From contig JALSRD010000065.1 in the NCBI GenBank assembly GCA_026984935.1, positions 1-51,582 on the forward strand: 51,582 bases of DNA, in the 5' to 3' direction. The notes under the pieces were generated by a model. It did not search any database and was not told the origin of the DNA. It saw only the letters and a list, made by a program, of their open reading frames with translations. This DNA comes from Desulfobacterales bacterium (GTDB lineage Bacteria > Desulfobacterota > Desulfobacteria > Desulfobacterales > JALSRD01). Positions 3,385 through 51,508 of this stretch are shown here, piece after piece. Position 1 is the first letter of the stretch. Each line of letters opens with the position of its first letter. The position numbers and the translations under genes are program-made.

Positions 3385-4713
3385 ATGTTTCGACTGCAGC
3401 GCCACCACGTTTCCGCCGGCACTTTCATCATCAGCGAGCACCAGCCCATGATCCTGGAGGCCTACCTCTCCAGTTGCGTCGGCATCGCGCTTTACGACCC
3501 GCAGCAGGAAGTCGGCGGACTCTTGCACGTGCTGCTGCCCGAGCCGCCCTCCAAAGAACGGGTGGAGGATGAACTGAAATACGCATCCACCGCGCTGCCG
3601 GTCTTTCTGCGCGCACTGGCCCAGGCCGGCGCCTCGCGCCAGGACCTGCAGGCCTGTGTCGCCGGTGGCGCCCTGGTACGGCCGTTGGCGGAAATGGACC
3701 TTTCCCTCAACATCGGCGGCCGCACGGAAGCCGCCGTCAGGCAGTTTCTCAGCGACGAGGGGATCCCCGTCAATAAGGCCGAAACCAGCGGCTACTTCAC
3801 CTGCCGCCTGAGCCTGGATACCCAGCAATGGGAGACGACCATCGACCCCACCGGGTTCGACGATCCGCCCGCCGAGACCCTGGCCCAACAGCCGACAGCC
3901 AGGGATATCCAGGCGGCCATCGACGCGCTGCAGCCCATCCCCCAAATGGCGCTGGAAATCCTGAACATCATGGAATCGGAGACCTACGATATCCAGGAGA
4001 TTGCCGACCGTGTGCGCCAGGACCAGGTGATCGCCGCCAGGACCCTGCAGCTCTGCAATTCAAGCCTCTACAACCGCGGCCGGCGCATCGAATCCGTGGA
4101 CCACGCGCTGGTCATGCTGGGGCGCAACCTCTTTGCCAAGCTGGTCATCTCCGCCCTGATCGAGGATTTTTTCAGCCACTGCATCATGGGTTACTCACTG
4201 TGCAAGGGCGGCCTGTTTTCGCACTCGCTGGGAACGGCGCTGGCCGCCGAGCGCATTGCCCAGCTGACCGGCCATGTGGCACCGTCCGTGGCGTACTCGG
4301 CCGGCTTGCTGCACGACATCGGCAAGGTCGTGCTCGATCAGTTCGTGGCCTCTGCGCTGCCGCTCTTCTACCGGCGGCTGCAGCAGCAAAACGACTTTCT
4401 TGCGCTCGAGCAGGAGATTTTCGGCACCGATCATGCCCAGGTCGGCCTGGAACTGGCCCGCCGCTGGTCTTTTCCCGCCTCCCTGACCGATGTCATTGCG
4501 TTCCACCACCAGCTGGAAGCACCTACGGACAGCGCTTTGCTGGTGATTCTCATCCACCTGGCCGACAACCTGATGTCCAGTTTTCACGCCGGCCTTAAAC
4601 TCGGCGGCCAGCACTCCACACGCCTCGGCTGGTGCCTCGGCAAACTGGGCATTGCGCTGTCGGATTTTCCGCGCATCGTCGACCTGGTACCCACCCAGTT
4701 CTGGGGGGTGTGA
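3385..4713 (+). CDS. CheD-HDOD fusion protein
   Basis: 442 residues. Residues 1-160 resemble CheD, the chemoreceptor glutamine deamidase: the pattern SSC31VG...LYDP...GGLLH48 matches stand-alone CheD, with the Cys and His at the same 17-residue spacing. The Thr six residues before the Cys (T21 of the CheD at 10387-10860) is replaced by Glu25, so activity is uncertain. Residues about 170-390 form an HDOD domain (LQPIPQMALEIL, QDQVIAARTLQLCNSS, then LLHDIGK and FHH), a signalling fold related to HD phosphohydrolases. The domain order is the same as the overlapping cheD and HDOD genes in the che operon. It is the only plus-strand gene next to the flagellar block. A role in receptor adaptation or signal integration is inferred. 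Confidence 0.85.
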   Translation: MFRLQRHHVSAGTFIISEHQPMILEAYLSSCVGIALYDPQQEVGGLLHVLLPEPPSKERVEDELKYASTALPVFLRALAQAGASRQDLQACVAGGALVRPLAEMDLSLNIGGRTEAAVRQFLSDEGIPVNKAETSGYFTCRLSLDTQQWETTIDPTGFDDPPAETLAQQPTARDIQAAIDALQPIPQMALEILNIMESETYDIQEIADRVRQDQVIAARTLQLCNSSLYNRGRRIESVDHALVMLGRNLFAKLVISALIEDFFSHCIMGYSLCKGGLFSHSLGTALAAERIAQLTGHVAPSVAYSAGLLHDIGKVVLDQFVASALPLFYRRLQQQNDFLALEQEIFGTDHAQVGLELARRWSFPASLTDVIAFHHQLEAPTDSALLVILIHLADNLMSSFHAGLKLGGQHSTRLGWCLGKLGIALSDFPRIVDLVPTQFWGV

Positions 4714-4758
4714 GCCGCCGCCGGCCCCCTGGAGGCGCCTGGCAGTTCGGCCGTGCCG

Positions 4759-5205
4759 TCAGCGGATCCAGAGATGCAAATTGTCGAGCATGCGCCAGGC
4801 GTGCCGACGCTGATCTTCACCGGCGTTGCGGATGCTGGCGATGATCAGGTCGCGGATAATCTCATCACTGACCCCCTGGGCCTTGAGACGTTCAATATCC
4901 CGTATTGTCAGCGCTTTCACGCTTCTCAAATCCTCGCCGTAGTGAGTCGCCGGCCGGTTGCGCAGAAACGATTTTTCAATGACCAGGGCCTGCAACTGAT
5001 CATCACTGAGGCCGCTCTTTTTCAAAGCGACCAGCTCGTCAACGGTCAGGGACTGGGTCTCGACGGTCTTTTCACGGATGATCGTCTGCAGCAGCGCGCC
5101 GCCGATGCCGGCACGGTGAAGTTTCTGCATCTCTTTTGCGCTCAGACACCAGGCATTGGCGGCGAAAGTGAAAATCAACAGGCTGATCAGTGCCGATCGT
5201 CGCAT
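4759..5205 (-). CDS. Small exported helical-repeat protein downstream of flgL
   Basis: 148 residues with an N-terminal signal sequence (RR, then a hydrophobic stretch ending near ANAWC-LS). The mature part holds three related helical segments: LSAKEMQKLHRAGIG, then LTVDELVALKKSGLSDDQL, then LTIRDIERLKAQGVSDEII. Each has the form L-T-x-(D/E)-(E/I)-(L)-x-x-(L)-K-x-x-G-(L/V)-S-D followed by a hydrophobic helix, similar to SHOCT-like short helical hairpins. It is the last gene of the leftward che-flgKL run, 58 bases after flgL, and converges with the CheD-HDOD gene. A signal Cys near residue 20 exists but the lipobox is poor. I do not recognise the protein; an envelope or periplasmic location is likely. 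Confidence 0.6.
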   Translation of the reverse strand: MRRSALISLLIFTFAANAWCLSAKEMQKLHRAGIGGALLQTIIREKTVETQSLTVDELVALKKSGLSDDQLQALVIEKSFLRNRPATHYGEDLRSVKALTIRDIERLKAQGVSDEIIRDLIIASIRNAGEDQRRHAWRMLDNLHLWIR

Positions 5206-5263
5206 TGGATACCGGAGTTGTTTGGGTTAAAGGTTCCCGTAAACGGGGGTTACAGGCGACAGA

Positions 5264-6157
5264 TCATTTCAGAAAGTCGAGCAGGCTCTGGCCGACGACC
5301 CGGGATGTGGCTGTAAGGGCGGCTTCATAGGCCGTCTGCCGCGTCATCAGATCGACGGCCGCCTGGTTCATGTCGGCATTTTCGGTGTCTGCCAGCAGGC
5401 TCTCATAGTGATTCTGCAAGTGCTGCCACTGGGTGTCGGTGGCGGCCAGCCGCTCGGCCACGATCGCATCGGCTCCCTGGACGGCTTTTATCCGCTCCAC
5501 CGCCTGGTCCAGCGTCCCGACCTGGGCCGCGACCAAGGCGGCATCCCCGCCCGCAAGACCGTCGATGACGTTTTTCAGGGTATCGAAAACCAGCGTGCCG
5601 TCGGCGTTTCGGAAAGGATTCCGGCCGCCGCTGTTCAAGCTGACGCTGGTGTTGGCGCCGATGGCGATGCGCACATCCCCTTCGTCTCCCGACCAGGTGG
5701 CATTGTAGGCATCATCCCGGCTGGCCGGCGGCCCATCGCTGCGGTGCCCGCCGAAAAGATACTGATCGCCGTATCGGCTGTTGGCCATGTCCATGACCTG
5801 GTCATAGATGTGCCGGGCGGCTTCAAGCGCCGCTGCACGGGTCTGATCGTCAAAAGTGCCGCCGCTTTGTTCCTGGGCCAGATTGCGGGCATCCTGCAAC
5901 AGCCCACGCACGCTTTCCAGACTCGCGTCGGTGACCGCCATGCGGGCGCTTCCCTTCTGGATATTGCGGCGGTACTGGGCCAGCGAGGCGATCTGCCCCC
6001 TGAACCCGAGGATCTGCTCGGCGGCCGCCGGATCGTCCGACGGCCGGTTCAGGCGTTTGCCGGAAGCCAGGGTGTTCTGGGCATCGACCAACTGTTCACG
6101 GTTCGCGGCCAGGCTGCCGCGCATGCTGTCGATCAGCATGTTCTCACTGATGCGCAT
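5264..6157 (-). CDS. flgL: Flagellar hook-filament junction protein FlgL (HAP3)
   Basis: 297 residues. FlgL forms the second of the two adaptor rings between hook and flagellin filament. The N-terminus (MRISENMLIDSMRGSL, then LNRPSDDPAAAEQILGFR) is the flagellin-like D0/D1 segment. The C-terminus (MNQAAVDLMTRQTAYEAALT and a final hydrophobic helix) supplies the partner coiled coil. The length is close to the usual 300. AGAGGGG lies just before the ATG. It follows flgK by 18 bases in the same transcript. In many relatives csrA and fliW come next; here a small exported protein does. Confidence 0.95.
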   Translation of the reverse strand: MRISENMLIDSMRGSLAANREQLVDAQNTLASGKRLNRPSDDPAAAEQILGFRGQIASLAQYRRNIQKGSARMAVTDASLESVRGLLQDARNLAQEQSGGTFDDQTRAAALEAARHIYDQVMDMANSRYGDQYLFGGHRSDGPPASRDDAYNATWSGDEGDVRIAIGANTSVSLNSGGRNPFRNADGTLVFDTLKNVIDGLAGGDAALVAAQVGTLDQAVERIKAVQGADAIVAERLAATDTQWQHLQNHYESLLADTENADMNQAAVDLMTRQTAYEAALTATSRVVGQSLLDFLK

Positions 6158-6175
6158 GATTTCCCCTCTTTGCGA

Positions 6176-7546
6176 TTATCCCATATTCATCAGCACGTCG
6201 AGCATTTCATCCGTTGCGCTGATCAGCTTGGCCGCCGCCGCATAGGCATGCTGGAACTGCACCAGGTTGACCATCTCCTCGTCGATGGACACTCCGGATA
6301 CCTCGTCCCGGTAGCTTTCGAGCTGGTTCATCACCGACGTGTTCTGGTCGAACTGGTCCGCGGCCGTTTTGGCGCTGCCGGCCACGTCGCCCACCAGCGA
6401 TGCGTAGTAAGCGCCGAAAGTGGCCGTGTTGCCGTTCATCAGGTCCTGGAATTCCAGGTTGCCGATGGCCATGGCATTGGCCGCACCGCCGGGCACGTCC
6501 TCCGCCGCGCCGGCCGCCGCGATCTTGGAGGGATCACTGACAATGGCCGGGTTGACGGCGATGTTCGCGGCCGAAGTGGAGCCGGCGGCAAAGAAATCAA
6601 GGCCCGTGGAGTGATCGAGCCCCTGCCCGCCGGCATGCAGCGTGTTCACGTTATCGATGATTCCGGCGGCCAGATCGTTCAGGCGTGCGAGATAGTCCTG
6701 GCCATCGGTCTTGGCGGCCAGATAGCCGCCCACCTTTCCCGAGGTGATGGCCGAAGCGGCAATGACCGCCGGCCCGCCGGAGGTCTGGATGCTGAAATCG
6801 GGGTTCGTGTACGAAAGCGCGTAGGCCGTTTCATCGTCGACCAGGGCATGGCCGTCGATGCTGATGTTGACCACCGGGCCGCTTTCACTGGCACTCACAT
6901 TGGCCAGCGATGAAAGCTCCTTCACCAGCTGATCGCGCCGGTCTTTCAGGTCATTGGGCGCCTGACCCATGTTCTCCGCCTGGCGGATACGGCGGTTGAG
7001 CGCGGCGATCTGGCCGGCCTTGTCGTTGATGTCGCTGACCGCCTGGCCGATCTGCGTGTCCAGGTCGCTCTGCACGTCTGTCACAGCAGCGGACATCTGC
7101 TGAAAGCGGTCGCTCAGCGCCTGGCTCTTGGAGACCAGCTGCGACCTTTCCACGGACCCGCCGGGATTGTTGGCCAGATCCTGCCAGGCGTGCCAGAATT
7201 CCTGCAGATTGTGGTTCAGCCCGGTTTCGCCGGTCTCGTCAAAGATAATCTGCAGGCGTTCGAGGCCGCTTTTCTCGGCCTCCCACTTGCCCAGCTCCTG
7301 GCTCTGCCCATCGATCTGGGCGCCCAGAAAGCGGTCGTGCATGCGCTGGACGGAAACGGCCTGCACGCCGCCGCCCATCTGGCCCGGCGTTGCCGCGACC
7401 GGTTCACCGCTGGTCAAATCGACCCGCTGGCGCGAGTATCCGGGCGTGTTGACGTTGGCGATATTGTGGCCCGTTACCGAAATCCCGGTCTGCTGGACCT
7501 GAAGCGCGCTCCTGCCAATACCCAAAATATTAAACAGGCTGGACAT
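6176..7546 (-). CDS. flgK: Flagellar hook-associated protein FlgK (HAP1)
   Basis: 456 residues from the ATG at 7546, preceded by GAAAGGA; a longer in-frame extension overlaps cheB and lacks FlgK similarity. FlgK is the first junction ring on the hook. The N-terminal rod/hook signature is visible (TGHNIANVNTPGYSRQ), and so is the C-terminal helix (EEMVNLVQFQHAYAAAAKLI) typical of hook/rod family proteins. The length is short of the enteric protein (about 550), so the variable middle domain is reduced. It sits directly after cheB (21-base gap), so hook-junction genes are read from the end of the chemotaxis operon. Confidence 0.95.
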   Translation of the reverse strand: MSSLFNILGIGRSALQVQQTGISVTGHNIANVNTPGYSRQRVDLTSGEPVAATPGQMGGGVQAVSVQRMHDRFLGAQIDGQSQELGKWEAEKSGLERLQIIFDETGETGLNHNLQEFWHAWQDLANNPGGSVERSQLVSKSQALSDRFQQMSAAVTDVQSDLDTQIGQAVSDINDKAGQIAALNRRIRQAENMGQAPNDLKDRRDQLVKELSSLANVSASESGPVVNISIDGHALVDDETAYALSYTNPDFSIQTSGGPAVIAASAITSGKVGGYLAAKTDGQDYLARLNDLAAGIIDNVNTLHAGGQGLDHSTGLDFFAAGSTSAANIAVNPAIVSDPSKIAAAGAAEDVPGGAANAMAIGNLEFQDLMNGNTATFGAYYASLVGDVAGSAKTAADQFDQNTSVMNQLESYRDEVSGVSIDEEMVNLVQFQHAYAAAAKLISATDEMLDVLMNMG

Positions 7547-7566: not shown

Positions 7567-8634
7567 TCAGGCCGCAGCAGCTTCCTCTTGCAGGTGATGC
7601 ACCACGGCCGACGGAACCTGGTCCAGCGGCACCACGCGGTCTACGGCGCCCAGCGCAAGCGCGGCCCTGGGCATGCCGAAGACCACGCACGACTGTTCAT
7701 CCTGGGCCAGGGTGTGTGCTCCTTGGCGGTGCATGGCCAGCAGCCCGTCGGCACCGTCAGAGCCCATACCCGTCAGAAGCACGCCCACGGCGTTTTTGCC
7801 GGCGTGCCGGGCCACCGATTTGAAGAGCACGTCCACACTGGGACGCTGGTAGTGCACCCTGGGCCCGTCTTTCAGCTTCACGACATAATCACCGCCCTCG
7901 CGGGCCAGCAGCATGTGCCGGTTTCCCGGTGCCAGCAGAACCCGGCCGGGAACCACACGATCATTGTGGGCCGCTTCGCGCACCTGCAGGCTGCAGACGC
8001 CATTCAGCCGCCCGGCAAAGGCAGCGGTGAATTTTGCCGGCATGTGCTGCACAACCACCACGCCGTCCATAGACGCCGGGAACCGCTTCAACACGCATTC
8101 CAGGGCACGCGTCCCGCCGGTGGAAGCGCCTATGGCGACGACCTTGCGGGTAGTATGGACTAGCCGGATGTCCAGTGGTTCGCTCCGGCCCTGCCCCGGC
8201 ACAGGGGCCGGGCAGGCATGCACGGCGGCCCCGGCCGCCGCCCGCACCGCACGTACGATATCCCGGGCGACGTCTTCGACCGAAAAGGAGGAACCCGGTT
8301 TGCACAGCACCTCGACCGCTCCCATGTCCAGGGCCTTCAGCGCGGTTTCACTGTTTTCCGGCGTCAGCGAGCTCAACACCACCACCGGCATGGGATAGTG
8401 CCTCATCAGCTTGGCCAGAAAGGAAAGCCCGTCCATGCGCGGCATCTCGATGTCCAGGGTCAGGACATCGGGCTGCAGTTTGACGATCTTGTCGCGTGCC
8501 ACATAGGGATCCACGGCCGTACCTACGATATTGATGTCGGCATAACGCGAAAGCTCTTCGGACAGCACTTTGCGCACCACCGCCGAATCGTCCACGATCA
8601 AAAGATTGATGGTCCTATGCGCTTTTCCGGACAT
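7567..8634 (-). CDS. cheB: Chemotaxis response regulator protein-glutamate methylesterase CheB
   Basis: 355 residues. An N-terminal receiver domain (VDDSAVV; phospho-acceptor D61 in LTLDIEMPRMDG) is joined to a C-terminal methylesterase domain. The catalytic triad residues are visible: S171 in GASTGG, H197 in VVQHMP and D293 in TGMGSDGADG. CheB removes methyl groups from chemoreceptor glutamates when phosphorylated by CheA, opposing CheR. It lies six bases after cheX and upstream of flgK. The lengths of both domains are typical. Confidence 0.97.
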   Translation of the reverse strand: MSGKAHRTINLLIVDDSAVVRKVLSEELSRYADINIVGTAVDPYVARDKIVKLQPDVLTLDIEMPRMDGLSFLAKLMRHYPMPVVVLSSLTPENSETALKALDMGAVEVLCKPGSSFSVEDVARDIVRAVRAAAGAAVHACPAPVPGQGRSEPLDIRLVHTTRKVVAIGASTGGTRALECVLKRFPASMDGVVVVQHMPAKFTAAFAGRLNGVCSLQVREAAHNDRVVPGRVLLAPGNRHMLLAREGGDYVVKLKDGPRVHYQRPSVDVLFKSVARHAGKNAVGVLLTGMGSDGADGLLAMHRQGAHTLAQDEQSCVVFGMPRAALALGAVDRVVPLDQVPSAVVHHLQEEAAAA

Positions 8635-8640
8635 GCCGGC

Positions 8641-9129
8641 CTACCCTTTCCCGCCATTTTCGGCCAACGGCCCGTCAACGAACAGCAGAACGTCACAACA
8701 GGTGTCTTCGACACTGAGCCGTGCCGTTGACAGGGCAACGGGAAATTCGGCTGCCTTGTCGGGTTCCCCCTCAGCCAGCATGCGGGGGGCGTCAATTTCG
8801 AATATCGCCTGGCTGCCGCCGATTTTCGGCAACAGATTGCCGCAGATCACATTCGCCGTCTCTTTCAGGGCATCGCACTGCTGCTCTAAAGTCACCTGCG
8901 ACGTTTCGTCGCTTCCCAGCATGTTGGCGGCCAGCTCCGGCAGCAGCTCCTGCGCGAGCTTGATCAGCAACCGGCCCGCAAAGGGGCCCCTGAACGTCAC
9001 CGCCACGCGGCTGACCGCTTGGGGCGGCACTTCCCCCTGTTCCGTATCGACCATGGCAAACAGGAAGGCCAGTTTTTCGAATGTTTCCGTGGCCACCTGT
9101 GCGAGCAGGTTATGGATCCTGGTCTTCAT
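8641..9129 (-). CDS. cheX: CheX/CheC-family CheY-P phosphatase
   Basis: 162 residues from the ATG at 9129, which has GAAGGGG before it; a TTG six codons upstream is less likely. It overlaps the end of cheY by 20 bases. The active-site helix of the CheC/CheX/FliY family is seen once: DALKE90TAN93VICGN, with the E-x2-N pair that attacks CheY-P. One such helix per chain is typical of CheX-like proteins. Position next to cheY makes dephosphorylation of CheY-P, in place of CheZ, the likely job. The call to CheX rather than a single-site CheC is by length and context. Confidence 0.75.
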   Translation of the reverse strand: MKTRIHNLLAQVATETFEKLAFLFAMVDTEQGEVPPQAVSRVAVTFRGPFAGRLLIKLAQELLPELAANMLGSDETSQVTLEQQCDALKETANVICGNLLPKIGGSQAIFEIDAPRMLAEGEPDKAAEFPVALSTARLSVEDTCCDVLLFVDGPLAENGGKG

Positions 9130-9511
9130 TGATAACCCCTTCTCCAATCAGCGTCTTTACCGTGTCCCGAAAAAGCTCCGGTGAAAAGGGCTTGTGGATA
9201 AACTTGACCCCCTGTCCCAGCAAATTGTCGATACGCTGGCTGCTGCCTTCGGTGGACACCACGATGATGGGCGTATCTCTCAATGCCGGGTCCTGCTTCA
9301 TTTGCCGGATCATCTCTTCACCGTTCATGACCGGCATGTTGATGTCCACCAGGACAAGGTCGATCCAGTGGTTGCCGAGTTGTTCGAGCCCTTCCTGTCC
9401 GTTGGCGGCCTGATGGATCTCACCAACCTTAAGGCCGCTCATTGCAACGGTCTTTGCAATCATGGAACGCATGACGCTGCTGTCGTCTACGATCAAAAGA
9501 TTGACTGCCAT
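9110..9511 (-). CDS. cheY: Chemotaxis response regulator CheY
   Basis: 133 residues, a single receiver domain. The acid pair D9-D10, phospho-acceptor D56 (LVLVDINMPVMNG) and the conserved Lys in IHKPFSP are all present. CheY-P binds FliM at the switch to change rotation. GGAGTCTTTT before the ATG is a good ribosome site. It lies between the HDOD gene and cheX in the che operon. A generic single-domain regulator is possible, but the context favours CheY. Confidence 0.88.
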   Translation of the reverse strand: MAVNLLIVDDSSVMRSMIAKTVAMSGLKVGEIHQAANGQEGLEQLGNHWIDLVLVDINMPVMNGEEMIRQMKQDPALRDTPIIVVSTEGSSQRIDNLLGQGVKFIHKPFSPELFRDTVKTLIGEGVINEDQDP

Positions 9512-9532: not shown

Positions 9533-10390
9533 CTATTCAAATTGGGTCGCAAAGCTCAGCAGGATTTCCTCAACCCAGCTCACCGCATTGGCGGCCACCC
9601 ATTCCAGTTGTCCTTCCTTCAAGCCGATCCGCTGCACCGCGCCATCAGAGAGATGATACTGCAGCCCTTCACGCCCGACACCCATGCCGATCATCAGGCA
9701 CAGCACGTTGGCGACATGTACAATATCAATCAGGGGGTTGCTCACCGGCGCCCCGTCCGGTTCGTGGTGCCAGCGCACAGCGGAAATGATCTGTTCGGGG
9801 AAGGACCAGTTCTGCAGGATCCGGGCGCCGATCTCGGCATGGTCGGTGCCGAAGACTTCGCGTTCGACTTTTTCGAAGGAGATCCCCCGGTCGGCCGTCG
9901 CATCCACACTGTCCGTCTCCGCCTTGATAAAGGCACCCAGCACCAGCTTACCCACATCGTGCAGCAGGGCGGCGGTAAAGATCTCGTCCACGCCCGTCAT
10001 TTCCAGTTCCTTTGCCAGGCCTTCGGCAACCACGGAAACGGCAATCGAATGCCGCCACAGTTCTCCCATGGGCAGGCCGTAGCCCGGGACCGCTTTGTCC
10101 ATAACGGCCGATACGCAGGCCGTCATGATCAGGTGGGCCAGTTTTTTCCAGCCTAAAAGGACCAGGGCCTGTCTGACCGACGCAACTTTGCTCGGCAGGC
10201 CGAAGTAGGACGAGTTGGTCAGTTTCAAGATATTGGCGGTCAGGCCGGCATCGTATCGTAAAACCGCACCGATCTCTTCGGCAGACGTGTTGGGGTTATC
10301 CAGCATGGCCAGGATCTTGGCGGCTGCCTGCGGAATGCTGGGAAACGATGCGATTTCGCGCGCAATCTTTTTCTTTGGGGAACGTGTCAC
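9533..10390 (-). CDS. HDOD-domain signalling protein
   Basis: 285 residues, almost entirely an HDOD domain: FPSIPQAAAKIL, then YDAGLTANILKLTNSSYFG, VASVRQALVLLGWKKL, LLHDVGK and a WHHEP near the end. HDOD proteins are regulators related to HD hydrolases and usually lack full catalytic sets. The start is a GTG whose first bases overlap the cheD stop (GTGA), so translation is coupled to cheD. The same CheD-then-HDOD order is found fused in one protein at 3385-4713. Its target is unknown; the position implies a role in chemotaxis or motility control. Confidence 0.85.
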   Translation of the reverse strand: MTRSPKKKIAREIASFPSIPQAAAKILAMLDNPNTSAEEIGAVLRYDAGLTANILKLTNSSYFGLPSKVASVRQALVLLGWKKLAHLIMTACVSAVMDKAVPGYGLPMGELWRHSIAVSVVAEGLAKELEMTGVDEIFTAALLHDVGKLVLGAFIKAETDSVDATADRGISFEKVEREVFGTDHAEIGARILQNWSFPEQIISAVRWHHEPDGAPVSNPLIDIVHVANVLCLMIGMGVGREGLQYHLSDGAVQRIGLKEGQLEWVAANAVSWVEEILLSFATQFE

Positions 10391-10860
10391 AGTACCTTGC
10401 TCTCTTCCCTGATTTTAACGAGCGTCTGGCCGGTGGAAAGGTCCAGACTGACCGTCCGGCTGGCCGTTCCTCCGATATCCTCGGCTTCGAGGATAATGCT
10501 GTTTTTCCAGAGCAGTTTCTTCAAAACCGTGTAGTTCCGTTCACCAATTTTGAACATGGCATTTTTCCCCAGCGGGCTTCCGCAGCCAGCGGCCTTGACC
10601 ACCATGCGCTGTTTCTGGCCGCCGAGCCCGTAAACTGCTTTAAACAGCAGCGGAACCCCTTTGTCGACGAACATATAGGGGTTGGCCTCGGCTTTCTGAG
10701 GGTTGATCTTGGACAGCGGAAGCATGGCGTGCAGCATCCCACCCACCTTTGCTTCAGGATCATAGATGATCAGGCCCAGGCAGCTTCCCAGCGCATGGGT
10801 AACGAGAATATCCCCGTTTGTACCGACCTTCATGTCTCCCACTGCCACGATTTGTTTCAT
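10387..10860 (-). CDS. cheD: Chemoreceptor glutamine deamidase CheD
   Basis: 157 residues, the family's usual size. The residues used by CheD for deamidation are present at the expected spacing: T21 and C27 in VTHALGSCLG, H44 in GGMLHAMLP. CheD converts specific receptor glutamines to glutamate and, in systems with CheC/CheX, couples adaptation to CheY-P levels. It is located between cheR and the HDOD gene and overlaps the latter by four bases. The ribosome site is weak. Compare the fused copy at 3385-4713, which has lost the Thr. Confidence 0.95.
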   Translation of the reverse strand: MKQIVAVGDMKVGTNGDILVTHALGSCLGLIIYDPEAKVGGMLHAMLPLSKINPQKAEANPYMFVDKGVPLLFKAVYGLGGQKQRMVVKAAGCGSPLGKNAMFKIGERNYTVLKKLLWKNSIILEAEDIGGTASRTVSLDLSTGQTLVKIREESKVL

Positions 10861-10914: not shown

Positions 10915-11763
10915 TCACTTGCGATAGGTCGCCGGGCAAATGTACCGGAACTGATGCGAAATGCCGGACAGCCCTTCCGAATGGCCGACGAAAAGGTAGC
11001 CGCCGGGCACCAGGTAGTCCCAAAAACGATCGATCAGTTGCTGCTGGGTTTCACGCTTGAAATAGATCATCACGTTACGGCAGAAAATGACATCGAATGG
11101 CCCCTGCATGGGCCACGGATGCATCAAATTCAGCTGTGCATAGTGGATCATCGCACGGATTTCAGGCCTGACGGAAAATATCTGCTGAGCATCCTCCTGT
11201 CCGGCCACCGGTCTGAAATACCGGCGCCGTATCGCCGGCGGCAGCCCGTCCATTTCACAGGCCGGATAGCGCCCCTGGCGGGCTTTTGCGAGCATCTGCA
11301 CTGAAATATCGGTCGCCAGGATACGGACGTCCCGGTTGTTTATGCCGGGCAGGTGTTCCCGCGTGGCAATGGCCATCGACACCGGCTCCTGGCCCGATGA
11401 GCAGGCCGCGCTCCAGAAGCGGATACGGGTCTTTTCCAGGGCCGGCAGAATCTTTTCAGTTAAAAAGTCGAAATGCGCCGCTTCCCGGAAAAAACTGGTC
11501 TTGTTGGTGGTCAGCGCATCCACCATGCAGCCCAGCTCCCGGGCCCCCTGACGGCTGTGGATCAGATCGAAGTATTCATCGAACCCGGCAATGCCAAGTT
11601 TTCGGATACGCTTTGCCAGCCGGGCCTGCACGAGGGCTTTTTTTTTGCGGCTGAGGTGGATGCCGCACAGGCGGTGCACCGTGCGACTGACATCCTGGAA
11701 CTGCTGTTCGCTGAGTTCAGCCGGCTGGAAAGAGCAGCGAAACACCGCCCGGCCCCGCGACAT
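10915..11763 (-). CDS. cheR: Chemotaxis protein methyltransferase CheR
   Basis: 282 residues from the ATG at 11763; a TTG seven codons earlier would overlap the end of cheA. The N-terminal helical domain (LSEQQFQDVSRTVHRLCGIHL) and the SAM-binding Rossmann domain are visible: IRFWSAACSSGQEPVSMA, then ILATDISVQMLAKAR and DVIFCRNVMIYF. CheR methylates receptor glutamates using S-adenosylmethionine. It follows cheA with a nine-base separation. The length is typical, and no C-terminal pentapeptide-binding or TPR extension is present. Confidence 0.96.
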   Translation of the reverse strand: MSRGRAVFRCSFQPAELSEQQFQDVSRTVHRLCGIHLSRKKKALVQARLAKRIRKLGIAGFDEYFDLIHSRQGARELGCMVDALTTNKTSFFREAAHFDFLTEKILPALEKTRIRFWSAACSSGQEPVSMAIATREHLPGINNRDVRILATDISVQMLAKARQGRYPACEMDGLPPAIRRRYFRPVAGQEDAQQIFSVRPEIRAMIHYAQLNLMHPWPMQGPFDVIFCRNVMIYFKRETQQQLIDRFWDYLVPGGYLFVGHSEGLSGISHQFRYICPATYRK

Positions 11764-11771
11764 GCCCTGTT

Positions 11772-14369
11772 CTACCCGTAACAAACCGCATCCTCGCCGG
11801 TTCCGCCGGCACTGCGGACTTCCCCGGCAGCGGTGGCCAGCCGGATGACGCCGCCCACATCCACGATCAATCCCACCCGCCCGTTGGGCAGAATGGCGCC
11901 GCCGGATATGCCGGGTACATGCTGCATGGTTTCGCCCAGGGTCTTGATGACCACCTGCTGCCGTCCGAAAAGCTCCTCGATCACCAGTCCGGCCTGCTGG
12001 CCGTCATCCTCGATCACCACGACCAGCGAAGATTCGGCCACGTCCATGTCACGTTCGATGCCGTAAAGCTCGGCCAGGCTGAACAGCGGGATCAGGCGGC
12101 CGTTTTGCATCAGCATTTTTTCCTGTTTAAAAACGCTGGATAGATTCTGCGCCTCCGGCTTGATCAGGCGCACGATGGAGACCGTGGGAATGATGTACTT
12201 CTGCAGCCCCACACCCACCACCATGCCGTCGATGATGGCCAGCGTCAGCGGTAGCCGCATCTTGAAAATGCTGCCGCTGCCGGCCTCGGATTGAATCTCG
12301 ACCTGCCCCCTGAGCGATTCGATATTTTTCTTGACCACATCCATGCCCACGCCGCGCCCGGAAACGTCGGTCACGGTTTCGGCCGTGGAAAATCCCGGCT
12401 CAAAGATCAGATTGAAAATGTCACGGTCGCCCATTGCACAGCTGTCTTCCACCAGACCGCGCTGGCGCGCTTTTTCGAGAATCCTGTCGCGGTCAAGGCC
12501 CTTGCCGTCGTCCCGGATTTCAACCACCACGCTGCCGGCAGAATGATAGGCCAAAAGACGGACGGTGCCGGCCGGAGGTTTGCCACAGGCGGTGCGCACT
12601 TCGGGCGGCTCAATGCCGTGGTCCACGGCGTTGCGCACCATGTGAACCAGGGGATCGTTGACGATATCCACCAGGTTGCGGTCGATCTCGGTATCTTCAC
12701 CCTCGGTGACCAGATTGACCTGTTTGCCCTGTTTGTGCGACAGATCCCTGACCAGACGGGCCATCTTGTTGAACGTCGCCTTGAGCGGCACCATGCGCAT
12801 GGACATGCTCAGATCCTGCAGTTCACGCACGATCTTGCTGGTATGCACCACTTTTTTCTGCAGCTCGTGGTTCTCCGCGCGCACGACCAGTTCGTCCTGG
12901 GCCACCATGGAATGTGCGATGACCATCTCGCCGACCATGTCGATGAGCTTGTCCAGCCGACTGGTGGAAACGCGCACCGAAGACTCGGTGAACTTTTTGG
13001 GGCCGTTGATGCGCTTCTGCATGCGCAGGGCCTGACCCACGTCCCTGGCGTTGGCGGTGCCGGACTTGACCAGGGCCGTCCCAGCCTTTTCGCCGCGATG
13101 CTCGGCGACCGCCGCCTCCACGGCTTCCCGTTCGGCCTTGCCCTGGGCCACGAGCAGATCACCGACCCGCGGGGCCTCCACATCGGCCGCACTTTCAGAT
13201 ATGCCGGCGGCCTCGGGATTTGCCAGCACCTGCAGCAGGCGATCGTATCCTTCCGGTTTGGCCAGCGGGCTGCCCTCCAGCGCCGCCTGCACGGAGGTGA
13301 TCAGCTCTTTGAGCATATCCAGCGCATTCAGCGAAAGGTCGGCGTATCCCCCGCTGTATCGAATCTCGCCGTCGCGCACACGGCTGAGCAGGGACTCTGC
13401 GTGGTGGGCCATCTCGGAAACCAGGTCGAGCTCCATGAAAGCGGCCGTGCCCTTGATGGTGTGAAAGGCCCGAAACACCGTACCCACGGCATCGGAGTCT
13501 TCGGGGTCCACCTCCAGCTGCAGCAGCGCGTCCTCGGCATTGGCGATCAGTTCACTGCCTTCGGTGATAAACTCGCCCACCAGTTCGGGATCGGCGTCGG
13601 CGGGCATGAAATCTTCGGCGGTGGCCGTGCCCGTTTCCACTGCTGGCGGGGCCGGGTCGCCGTCAACACCCTGCTCCGCATCCGGCGCCGCAGCCGGCAC
13701 GGATGAAGATCCGCCGGCCGCCGGCCCCTCCTTGTGCATACCGGCCGGCTCCATCCCGCGCTGGAGGTCCTCCATGGCATCCAGGGCATTTTGCACGATT
13801 TCACCCAGGTCGTCGAAAAGTGCATCGTCTTCTTCGCCGTCGTACAGGAAACGGCCAATCCGTGCATGCGCCTTTTCAAGGTGGGCATGCGCCGGCGGCG
13901 GCAACATGCCGCAGCATGTCACGGCCCCGATATCACCGAACAGGCACTTTAAGCCCTGCCGATCCCCGGCCTCGAGCTGGATGAGGTCGGCGGCGATTCC
14001 GTTGACGACGGCACCGGCATCCACGCTTTCACCCAGGGTCTGCGAAAGCGCCGCGACAGATTTCTGCAAAGCGGCCACATCGGCGGCATCGGCCTGCAAG
14101 AACATCTCGCAGGCATTCAGGGCGCTGTATATGCCGTCCACCAGAGAAACCCGGTCTGCGGATGTTTCCCGGCAAAGGCAGATAATCCCGAGCCGGCACA
14201 GCGCCGTCAACGCGCTTGCCTCGCGTTGCGGCCCCTCGAATCGTTCTTCAAGCGCAGCCAGCGTTTCGGCCAGTTCCTGCCAGCCCTGCACGTCGCTGAC
14301 ACTCAGCGAGTCAAGGCTCTCTTGTGCATTTCTTACGGTTTCAAGGACATCGTCGCTGCTCGCCGTCAT
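11772..14369 (-). CDS. cheA: Chemotaxis histidine kinase CheA with long N-terminal extension
   Basis: 865 residues. Order: an N-terminal helical region of about 250 residues without a recognisable phospho-His; an Hpt (P1) domain at about 258-360 with phospho-acceptor H303 in AFHTIKGTAAF; a linker at about 400-455 with two G-x-L-(L/V)-(V)-x-x-G-type units; the P3 dimer helices near 462-510; the ATPase domain (HMVRNAVDHG at 576, DDGKGLD at 620, GRGVGMDVV at 671); and a CheW-like P5 domain at about 710-850. CheA phosphorylates CheY and CheB. No obvious P2 domain lies between P1 and P3. AAGGACGCTAAG precedes the ATG. No separate cheW is in the window. Confidence 0.96.
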   Translation of the reverse strand: MTASSDDVLETVRNAQESLDSLSVSDVQGWQELAETLAALEERFEGPQREASALTALCRLGIICLCRETSADRVSLVDGIYSALNACEMFLQADAADVAALQKSVAALSQTLGESVDAGAVVNGIAADLIQLEAGDRQGLKCLFGDIGAVTCCGMLPPPAHAHLEKAHARIGRFLYDGEEDDALFDDLGEIVQNALDAMEDLQRGMEPAGMHKEGPAAGGSSSVPAAAPDAEQGVDGDPAPPAVETGTATAEDFMPADADPELVGEFITEGSELIANAEDALLQLEVDPEDSDAVGTVFRAFHTIKGTAAFMELDLVSEMAHHAESLLSRVRDGEIRYSGGYADLSLNALDMLKELITSVQAALEGSPLAKPEGYDRLLQVLANPEAAGISESAADVEAPRVGDLLVAQGKAEREAVEAAVAEHRGEKAGTALVKSGTANARDVGQALRMQKRINGPKKFTESSVRVSTSRLDKLIDMVGEMVIAHSMVAQDELVVRAENHELQKKVVHTSKIVRELQDLSMSMRMVPLKATFNKMARLVRDLSHKQGKQVNLVTEGEDTEIDRNLVDIVNDPLVHMVRNAVDHGIEPPEVRTACGKPPAGTVRLLAYHSAGSVVVEIRDDGKGLDRDRILEKARQRGLVEDSCAMGDRDIFNLIFEPGFSTAETVTDVSGRGVGMDVVKKNIESLRGQVEIQSEAGSGSIFKMRLPLTLAIIDGMVVGVGLQKYIIPTVSIVRLIKPEAQNLSSVFKQEKMLMQNGRLIPLFSLAELYGIERDMDVAESSLVVVIEDDGQQAGLVIEELFGRQQVVIKTLGETMQHVPGISGGAILPNGRVGLIVDVGGVIRLATAAGEVRSAGGTGEDAVCYG

Positions 14370-47554: not shown

Positions 47555-48301
47555 TCACGCCAGGGCGGCCTTGGCCGCTTCAATGGAGGCGTCGAAGGGG
47601 ATAGCGCTGGTTTCCTGAAATCCCTTCAGCTCTTCCCCCAGGCTCTGCTGGCCGGCCAGGCGGAAGGCGACCCCGGCTTTCTGACAGTTCTGGGCCACCA
47701 AGACGATGAGTTTGATCAACGACATATTCGTCTGGCTGCATTTTTCCATATTGACGACGAGTTTCTTGATGCCGGCGCCCACCATTTCCCTGGTTTTCGC
47801 CGCCAGCGCACTTTCGAGCTCGACGATCAGCGGGCGGCCCACCTTTTCGGGCAGATTGAGCAGTTCCACGTCCTGATCCAGGGCAAAGTATTTGCCGGCA
47901 CTGCCGGCACCGGCGGCATCCGCCGATTTGGGGCTGAGCTTGACGATTTTTTCCACGCGTTCGATGAGCTGGTCGCCTTTGAACGGTTTGACCATATAAT
48001 CGTTGACGCCCATTTTGACAATTTTCATGACGTTGTCTTTGCCTGATTCGGCCGTCAGCATGATCACCGGAATATCTTTCAGGCTGGGTTCGGCCTTGAG
48101 TTTTTCCAGCATCTCGATACCGTTCATCACCGGCATGGTGATATCCAGTACGATCAGGTCCGGCTTGACTTTGCTCGCCAGCGACAGGCCCTCGACACCG
48201 TTTTCGGCCTCGTGAAGTTCACAGTCGAACCCTTTGAATGCACGCTTCACGACCATGCGAATTGTCTTGCTGTCATCCACGGTAAGAACTTTTAGCGCCA
48301 T
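47555..48301 (-). CDS. Response regulator with STAS-like C-terminal domain
   Basis: 248 residues. Residues 1-125 are a CheY-type receiver: D9-D10, phospho-acceptor D53 in LIVLDITMPVMNG and the Lys in YMVKPFKG. After a short Ala/Gly linker, residues about 136-240 look like a STAS (anti-anti-sigma) fold: VELLNLPEKVGRPLIVELES, KKLVVNMEKCSQTNMSLIKL and a final helix. It follows the second CheX-type gene by 21 bases, so a phosphatase and its target regulator are probably encoded together. It may regulate motility or a partner-switching pathway; the output is unknown. Confidence 0.82.
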   Translation of the reverse strand: MALKVLTVDDSKTIRMVVKRAFKGFDCELHEAENGVEGLSLASKVKPDLIVLDITMPVMNGIEMLEKLKAEPSLKDIPVIMLTAESGKDNVMKIVKMGVNDYMVKPFKGDQLIERVEKIVKLSPKSADAAGAGSAGKYFALDQDVELLNLPEKVGRPLIVELESALAAKTREMVGAGIKKLVVNMEKCSQTNMSLIKLIVLVAQNCQKAGVAFRLAGQQSLGEELKGFQETSAIPFDASIEAAKAALA

Positions 48302-48322: not shown

Positions 48323-48802
48323 TTATTTGGGTTTGATAAATATCTCCACCATTGCAATGTAGTCCAGATAGCGGAAGCAGCAACGTTCATGCCAGCTCCA
48401 TTCCCTGGTTTCAATCTTGAAGTTTCCGCCGCTGGTGATGTTGGGAATGGAAAGTTCACAGGGGAAACCCATATCACACAAATGCGACTTCACGCCCCCG
48501 CCGATCATGTTGCTGACTTCCCCGATGACATCGTATACTTCCTCATCACCTTCGATTTCTTCAGGCTCCATCCCCAGCATGGCGCAGGTCATCTCGCGCG
48601 CAAAATCACCGTTGACGCAGATCCGGCTGCACCCCATGGCTTCGCCGGTGAAGCTGACGGACCCGACAATCTTATCCCCATTGAAAAAACCCTCGGGGAC
48701 ATCATCAACCAGCTCCACAGGCATCGACAGCATGGTATCGAAGACTTCCCGCGCCGTTTCAGAAGCGACATTCTTCAGCCTTTGCGCATCCATTATGCTC
48801 AT
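48323..48802 (-). CDS. Second CheX-type chemotaxis phosphatase
   Basis: 159 residues. Single CheC/CheX active-site helix with IGE95VSN98MIGGG, the E-x2-N pair. The preceding segment (GSVSFTGEAMGCSRICVNGD) is the beta sheet typical of this fold. It differs clearly from the che operon copy (8641-9129). It is paired with the receiver-STAS gene downstream. GGAG lies 12 bases before the ATG, a little far. A CheX-like phosphatase for the neighbouring regulator is the simplest reading. Confidence 0.78.
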   Translation of the reverse strand: MSIMDAQRLKNVASETAREVFDTMLSMPVELVDDVPEGFFNGDKIVGSVSFTGEAMGCSRICVNGDFAREMTCAMLGMEPEEIEGDEEVYDVIGEVSNMIGGGVKSHLCDMGFPCELSIPNITSGGNFKIETREWSWHERCCFRYLDYIAMVEIFIKPK

Positions 48803-50549: not shown

Positions 50550-50687
50550 AAATTAAAGAGGGATCATCTCCCATTGAGTTGTAGGAAAGATAGGGGACAG
50601 CTTTGGTGACAAATAGAATGGACATCCGGTACCTCCAGGGATATGAGTTTGTTTGCGAAGACAATCCATATCAAAAGGAGGCCTGCG

Positions 50688-51508
50688 ATGTCCGGACTCA
50701 GTGTAGCATCATTTTTCCCCTTTCGTCGACTTAAAGTTTTCTACCAGGATGTAAACGCCGAGGTCACCGAAGCGCATATCATGACCAGAGCGGACTTGCG
50801 GTTCACGCCAGTGTGCCAGGCCTGCGGGAGCAAAGTTTCCGGTGTTCACAGCTGGACCAGGCACAAGATCCGGGATCTGAACATGGCTACCGCTACCGTG
50901 TGGGTAAGTTGCTATATCGCAAGGTATATTGTCCTCATTGCCAGCGCATTCATGTCGAGGATCTCGGTCTTTTCCATCCCTATCTGCGGGTCACCAGGCG
51001 GTTGGCCCGATACGTATATCAATTGTGCCGGGTAATGACCGTAACCGAAGCCGCAGAGCATCTGGGCCTGAACTGGAAAACGGCGAAGGCCATCGACAAA
51101 CAGTATTTGGAACGCGATTTCGGCCAGCCCGATTACGAAGGCCTGCTTATTTTGGCAGTGGACGAAATCTCGTTACGCAAAGGCCACCGGTACCTGACCA
51201 TCGTACTGGACTACGAAACCGGCCATGTCGTACATGTCGGCAAAGGCCGGAAGACAAAAACGCTGGTTCGTTTTTTCAACCAATTGAAGCTCCGGCAGCG
51301 CAAGGCCATCGATGCTGTGGTCATGGACATGTGGAATCCATTTATCAAGGCCGTCAAAAAGAAGCTGCCCAACGCCAAAATCGTTTTCGATCTGTTTCAC
51401 GTCGTGGCCGCATACAACCGGCTGATCGATAAGATTCGAAACTGCGAGCACCGAAACCCTGCATTCCCGACTTATTGTAACGAGGCAGGAGGCGTGACAC
51501 CCATTTGA
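50688..51508 (+). pseudogene. ISL3-family transposase, frameshifted and 3'-truncated
   Basis: The first frame starts at 50688 (AAAGGAGGCCTGCG upstream) and carries the N-terminal zinc-finger half (VCQACGSKVSGVHSWTRHKI). Similarity then continues in a different frame from about 50907: LLYRKVYCPHCQRIHVEDLG, the helix-turn-helix MTVTEAAEHLGLNWKTAKAI and the DDE core (LILAVDEISLRKG, AVVMDMWNPFIKAVKKKLPN, IVFDLFHVV). Restoring one A in GTAAG (to GTAAAG) would join both frames. The usual C-terminal third is missing: similarity fades after RLIDKIRN at about 51450 and the frame ends at 51508. It is not likely to be active. Confidence 0.82.

Follow-up and report, generated by a model that had tools for sequence, protein, structure and literature searches.

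The window, i.e., the whole stretch of 51,582 nucleotides that was analyzed, carries on its forward strand a gene for a protein in which a CheD domain is followed by an HDOD domain. The features of this gene are the following.

3385-4713, + strand: CheD-HDOD fusion gene (clade B, see below), an open reading frame of 442 amino acids with an ATG start, assigned by Pfam, homologues, and AlphaFold.
3409-3843, + strand: CheD domain of the fusion, delimited by the HMM match and the fold of T. maritima CheD (2f9z_C).
3457-3459, + strand: codon of Glu25, six residues ahead of the Cys, at the place of the catalytic Thr21.
3475-3477, + strand: codon of Cys31, aligned with the catalytic Cys27 of T. maritima CheD.
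3526-3528, + strand: codon of His48, aligned with His44 of T. maritima CheD.
3907-4656, + strand: HDOD domain of the fusion, delimited by the HMM match and matches to HDOD structures.
4312-4317, + strand: codons of His310-Asp311, the HD motif of the fused HDOD domain, invariant in 49 fusions.

The domain order, CheD first and HDOD second, had already been read by the earlier note and is the order of the Pfam matches: CheD at residues 50-153 (PF03975; E 9.5e-19; 68.0 bits against a cut-off of 25) and HDOD at residues 183-376 (PF08668; E 4.5e-48; 163.8 bits against a cut-off of 22.9). The NCBIfam equivalog cut-off for CheD is not reached (80 vs. 251 bits). The fused CheD domain superimposes on chain C of 2F9Z with a Z-score of 22.8 and an rmsd of 1.8 across 148 residues, and the fused HDOD domain matches the folds 3p3q, 1vqr, 3hc1, and 9qzk (MmoQ, Cj0248, a Geobacter HDOD protein, and SadB). 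The AlphaFold model of the two-domain protein, for which the 49 fusions served as the input alignment (pLDDT 85.6; pTM 0.86), suggests that the domains form one ordered unit with a fixed packing.

On the opposite strand, the window contains a flagellar-type che operon with the order cheA-cheR-cheD-HDOD-cheY-cheX-cheB, followed by flgK and flgL.

11772-14369, - strand: cheA (Pfam Hpt, H-kinase_dim, HATPase_c, and CheW).
10915-11784, - strand: cheR, assigned by homology and its place in the conserved operon order.
10387-10860, - strand: operon cheD, 157 amino acids (CheD E 8.6e-25).
10387-10390, - strand: overlap GTGA between the stop codon of cheD and the start codon of the HDOD gene, read from the sequence.
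9533-10390, - strand: operon HDOD gene, 285 amino acids, GTG start (HDOD E 3e-58; 197 bits against 22.9).
9110-9511, - strand: cheY (Pfam Response_reg).
8641-9147, - strand: cheX (Pfam CheX).
7567-8634, - strand: cheB, assigned by its translation and a gene order that is kept in relatives.

The minus strand reads ...GTACTGTGACACG... at the overlap, where GTGA contains both the stop codon of cheD (TGA) and the start codon of the HDOD gene (GTG); the arrangement in the operon had thus been described correctly before. The distance of 5.7 kb given for the two loci holds from the end of the fusion gene to cheD, but the operon HDOD gene lies at 4.8 kb. Within cheA, two similar motifs (GDLLVAQG... 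and GTALVKSG...) are located ahead of the dimerization domain at 12950-13190 (- strand), in a stretch covered by no Pfam model. A second CheX gene (48323-48802, - strand) is found at the far end of the flagellar cluster, beside a receiver-domain protein (47555-48301) and in the neighborhood of sigma-54 regulators. Near the contig end, a short open reading frame (50643-51035, + strand) with a sub-threshold match to an ISL3-type zinc ribbon is perhaps the remnant of an insertion sequence.

The window genome (3.9 Mb) encodes two CheD and ten HDOD domains, and with these numbers the chance that a cheD gene has an HDOD neighbor at random is well under 1%. With four MCPs and two CheAs, both substrate and kinase are present. 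No match to CheC (PF04509) was obtained in this genome, and CheC was likewise not found in 10 of 19 other genomes tested.

When the fusion protein was used as a query against 395 genomes of the phylum, about 50 unbroken, full-length CheD-HDOD fusions were found in about 49 of them, belonging to 20 families; this count is a lower bound, four candidates having been scored per genome. Many other families have such fusions, with identities of up to 47%. The same search gave many HDOD matches adjoining a CheD match, which agrees with the view of the earlier note that the two genes form a coupled pair. Loci were then fetched, selected partly for having such pairs, and among them are 51 CheDs fused to HDOD and 79 cheD genes directly followed by an HDOD gene. 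CheD precedes HDOD in 51/51 fused and 79/79 adjacent cases, the reverse order never being found, and stop and start codons overlap by exactly four nucleotides in 57 of the 79 pairs, which points to translational coupling. The usual setting of the pair is CheA-CheR-CheD-HDOD-CheY-CheX-CheB; a second type is CheR-CheB-CheD-HDOD-CheY-CheX. In a sample of 20 genomes drawn without regard to HDOD, 12 of 31 CheD loci are linked to HDOD: ten are followed by it and two are fused, with one of the others located after cheC and 18 having neither neighbor.

The link thus occurs in many bacteria of the sulfate-reducing type, and carriers include named Thermodesulfobacteriota, e.g., Desulfatitalea alkaliphila. 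HDOD was found beside CheD in none of 29 sampled loci of Nitrospirota; thus, the link is mainly a trait of the phylum of the window genome, outside which single cases were seen in one Nitrospiria MAG and one Phycisphaerae MAG, along with a cheD-HDOD pair with overlapping frames in a Thermosulfurimonas MAG. A scan of contigs with the HD motif alone as the pattern yielded mostly unrelated HD proteins. In several genomes CheC coexists with the pair, and at two loci (L127 and L128) a cheC-like gene is located near the pair. No description of a CheD-HDOD link was found among openly licensed papers, and an earlier account may exist elsewhere; the partnership is apparently undescribed so far.

What such a partnership may do is best considered against the module of CheC, CheD, and CheYp known from B. 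subtilis and T. maritima (2F9Z). There, too, cheD lies beside the gene of its partner in a che cluster, and the CheD fold and the Cys/His site are common to both systems. In Bacillus, CheC binds CheD under the control of CheY-P and thereby removes it from the receptors; residues M101 and F102 of B. subtilis CheD touch CheC, and species that have CheC conserve them (PMC3513319). However, the known order is cheC-cheD, whereas in the window cheD comes first and the partner is HDOD; furthermore, the window CheDs lack the M101/F102 contact and the genome has no CheC match. The contact lies in a motif, GGAxMF, 67-68 residues past the Cys, which is present in 8/8 CheDs encoded beside cheC. At this site, MF is found in 0/79 paired and 0/51 fused CheDs, i.e., in none of 130 HDOD-linked ones; the window proteins have PL (operon CheD) and VR (fusion). 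These and the other sequence contrasts are raw counts that ignore kinship, and the class of CheC neighbors comprises eight sequences. The stretch AMFKIG of the operon CheD was considered as the contact site and ruled out, the true motif being GGAxMF. Since MF is mostly absent also from CheDs with neither neighbor (CheR-CheD-CheB), its loss alone does not imply an HDOD partner.

Given that the CheC contact is missing, that CheC itself is often absent, and that HDOD is a coupled neighbor, we propose that HDOD binds CheD. The reading we favor, and which we regard as fairly probable, is that in this phylum CheD and HDOD function as one conserved unit, in which HDOD binds and controls CheD from a position like that of CheC. 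The coupled gene pair of the che operon and the separately inherited fusion protein would be two forms of this unit. From its gene arrangement, HDOD is probably a dedicated partner of CheD, and perhaps it stands in the place of CheC. The HDOD protein would contact CheD directly and control how CheD binds or deamidates chemoreceptors, and it would set the amount of CheD that is free or active at the receptors. As its signal, HDOD might perceive CheY-P or a small ligand, c-di-GMP being one example.

That HDOD could act in this way is plausible from what has been reported of other HDOD proteins. Such proteins act on motility, SadB binds c-di-GMP, and a Pseudomonas HDOD protein requires an arginine pair at a predicted protein-contact site for the inhibition of motility (PMC6543031; PMC11813219; PMC11004494); together, these properties make a ligand-controlled protein-binding domain conceivable. 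The HDOD protein of the window has its fold and an association with flagellar motility in common with SadB (9QZK), GsmR, Cj0248 (1VQR), and PSPTO_4229, but CheD is not mentioned in the accessible parts of the papers on these proteins, and SadB has a YbaK-like domain where the window fusion has CheD. In a related lineage, an HD-superfamily gene was reported in 2008 inside the group alpha che clusters of Geobacter (PMC2577667). The accessible part of that paper names its product as an HD domain protein and mentions neither a CheD link nor a fusion.

The coupling of the two genes may reflect no more than stoichiometry or co-expression. The HDOD protein could be a flagellar regulator in its own right, acting for example in flagellar gene expression or c-di-GMP sensing without contacting CheD, and the fusion would merely save a gene boundary; we consider this unlikely, albeit worth weighing. 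HDOD proteins do affect swimming and flagellar gene expression in organisms for which no CheD link is reported, and in families f46, f76, and f92 (loci L196, L197, L204, L205, L223, L224, L228, L229, and L232) the operon CheD has no HDOD neighbor and an HDOD of the CheD-linked clade is located elsewhere in the genome. However, where the genes are linked, the neighbor is specifically CheD, in a fixed order and with the four-nucleotide overlap, even in CheR-CheB-CheD-HDOD clusters, and the fusion has been kept in all those 20 families. Moreover, the partners co-vary. Distances between CheDs and between HDODs correlate with a coefficient of 0.78 across 128 linked pairs, and in 18 genomes that have both a fusion and a pair the coefficients are 0.89 (fusion) and 0.65 (pair) for linked partners, but 0.30 and 0.08 for the crossed combinations of CheD and HDOD. 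A genome history in common is not enough as an explanation, and a unit of CheD and HDOD remains our preferred reading.

The fused loci fall into two clades. Clade A (15 loci) is found beside cheR and a hybrid histidine kinase, and clade B (36 loci, that of the window among them) mostly stands alone, with no conserved neighborhood but generic receiver/kinase genes at 20/36 loci. The clade A fusions are part of a conserved group of signaling genes, with CheR encoded directly downstream in 15/15 loci. The two of these that were annotated (L114, 5303-13198, and L118, 972-7224) encode after CheR a PAS/GAF hybrid histidine kinase that has two receivers, and next a receiver-HisKA protein; in one of them an HTH-receiver protein is encoded upstream of the fusion. 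These stretches contain neither CheA nor an MCP, so their CheR and CheD may have a target that is not an MCP.

The catalytic triad of T. maritima CheD consists of Cys27, His44, and Thr21 (PMC7022378), and it is intact in the operon CheD of the window. Cys and His are invariant in 51/51 fused CheD domains and in the alignment of the 49 fusions. A Thr or Ser six residues ahead of the Cys is present in 73/79 paired CheDs and in 8/8 beside cheC, and in 0/51 fused ones; in clade A a Thr occurs one residue later than usual, in clade B almost never. Clade B has, in addition, C or F instead of an Arg with 100% conservation in all other classes, and T instead of a nearly invariant CheD Asn. The third residue of the triad varies across the wider superfamily (PMC7022378), so a fusion without the Thr could still be active. 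The replacement of the Thr in clade B suggests an altered activity, and the fusion of this clade probably has a changed target or is mainly a receptor binder. Its HDOD domain is permanently attached to CheD, the site of which retains Cys and His and is devoid of the Thr and other conserved residues. A precedent for a C-terminal addition is NTAN1, the human N-terminal Asn amidohydrolase, which has a CheD-like fold (Z 13.5) and in which a C-terminal added region covers the active site (PMC7022378), but that region is not an HDOD domain, and NTAN1 has no role in chemotaxis. In the fused HDOD domain, H280, H310-D311, H350, and H374 are 100% conserved in the fusions, and the last D of the HD-type ligands is kept in 81% of those of clade B; these residues, the predicted metal ligands, are also kept by most HDODs in the set.

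The direction of control could also be the reverse, with CheD, via a bound receptor or its amidase chemistry, as the input that switches an HDOD output toward nucleotides or gene expression. The location of clade B outside che operons, its substitutions at the Thr and at near-invariant residues (R to C/F, N to T), and the persistence of all HD-type ligands would fit such a direction. However, a mere docking domain would need neither the Cys nor the His that all fused CheDs have kept, and most operon pairs (73/79) have the full triad; we judge control of HDOD by CheD to be improbable and retain that of CheD by HDOD.

For the origin of the fusion, the earlier note had offered two readings: either a coupled gene pair was duplicated and then fused, or a fusion of old date exists beside split genes. 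The trees favor the latter: the halves of the window fusion group with the halves of other fusions and not with unrelated lineages. A single branch separates all fused CheDs from the rest (93/79 in the careful tree; 95% of bootstraps); for the fused HDODs, such a branch (97/92) also takes in L255 and a few HDODs that stand alone, all from one family. The operon CheD and the operon HDOD both belong to the same small clade as the pairs of G232, G275, G389, and G273 (99% SH-aLRT), and each window copy has closer relatives in other families than its counterpart in the window. The gene pair, too, is old, and both the fusion and the operon copies belong to old lineages that other families have as well. 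A recent duplication with fusion in the window lineage would fit the common domain order and the proximity of the loci, but it has practically no standing left, since AU tests reject the window copies as sisters (p 8e-7 for CheD, p 2e-41 for HDOD), the copies are 22% (CheD) and 29% (HDOD) identical and rank 152nd of 167 and 127th of 166 in each other's lists of relatives, and similar fusions exist in so many other families. Most simply, the fusions derive from one old fusion event and have since formed two clades; in the CheD tree, the position of the fusion clade is poorly resolved. As 11 of the 79 cheD-HDOD pairs are already in one frame, the loss of a stop codon would suffice to fuse an adjacent pair. 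At L255 (5752-7320, the Nitrospiria MAG), fusion-like CheD and HDOD sequences lie in one frame with a single stop codon between them; they may represent a fusion that has been split, a state before fusion, or a sequencing error. In G387 (L082, about 4600-7300, - strand), a split cheD-HDOD pair comes directly after a CheD-HDOD fusion on the same strand, and by the tree the two are not recent duplicates.

A more far-reaching possibility, which we put forward tentatively, is a third type of module for chemotaxis adaptation, in which HDOD replaces CheC as the regulator of CheD and feeds a second messenger (e.g., c-di-GMP) or the metal or redox state into receptor adaptation. The clade B fusion would then be a protein amidase that works on its own, is gated by a second messenger, and has receptors or other proteins as targets. 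The HDOD domain is widespread but has no established mechanism, and its coupling and fusion to CheD give it a concrete biochemical handle. If the proposed unit exists, lineages without CheC would control CheD differently, and second messengers could have a connection to chemotaxis adaptation.
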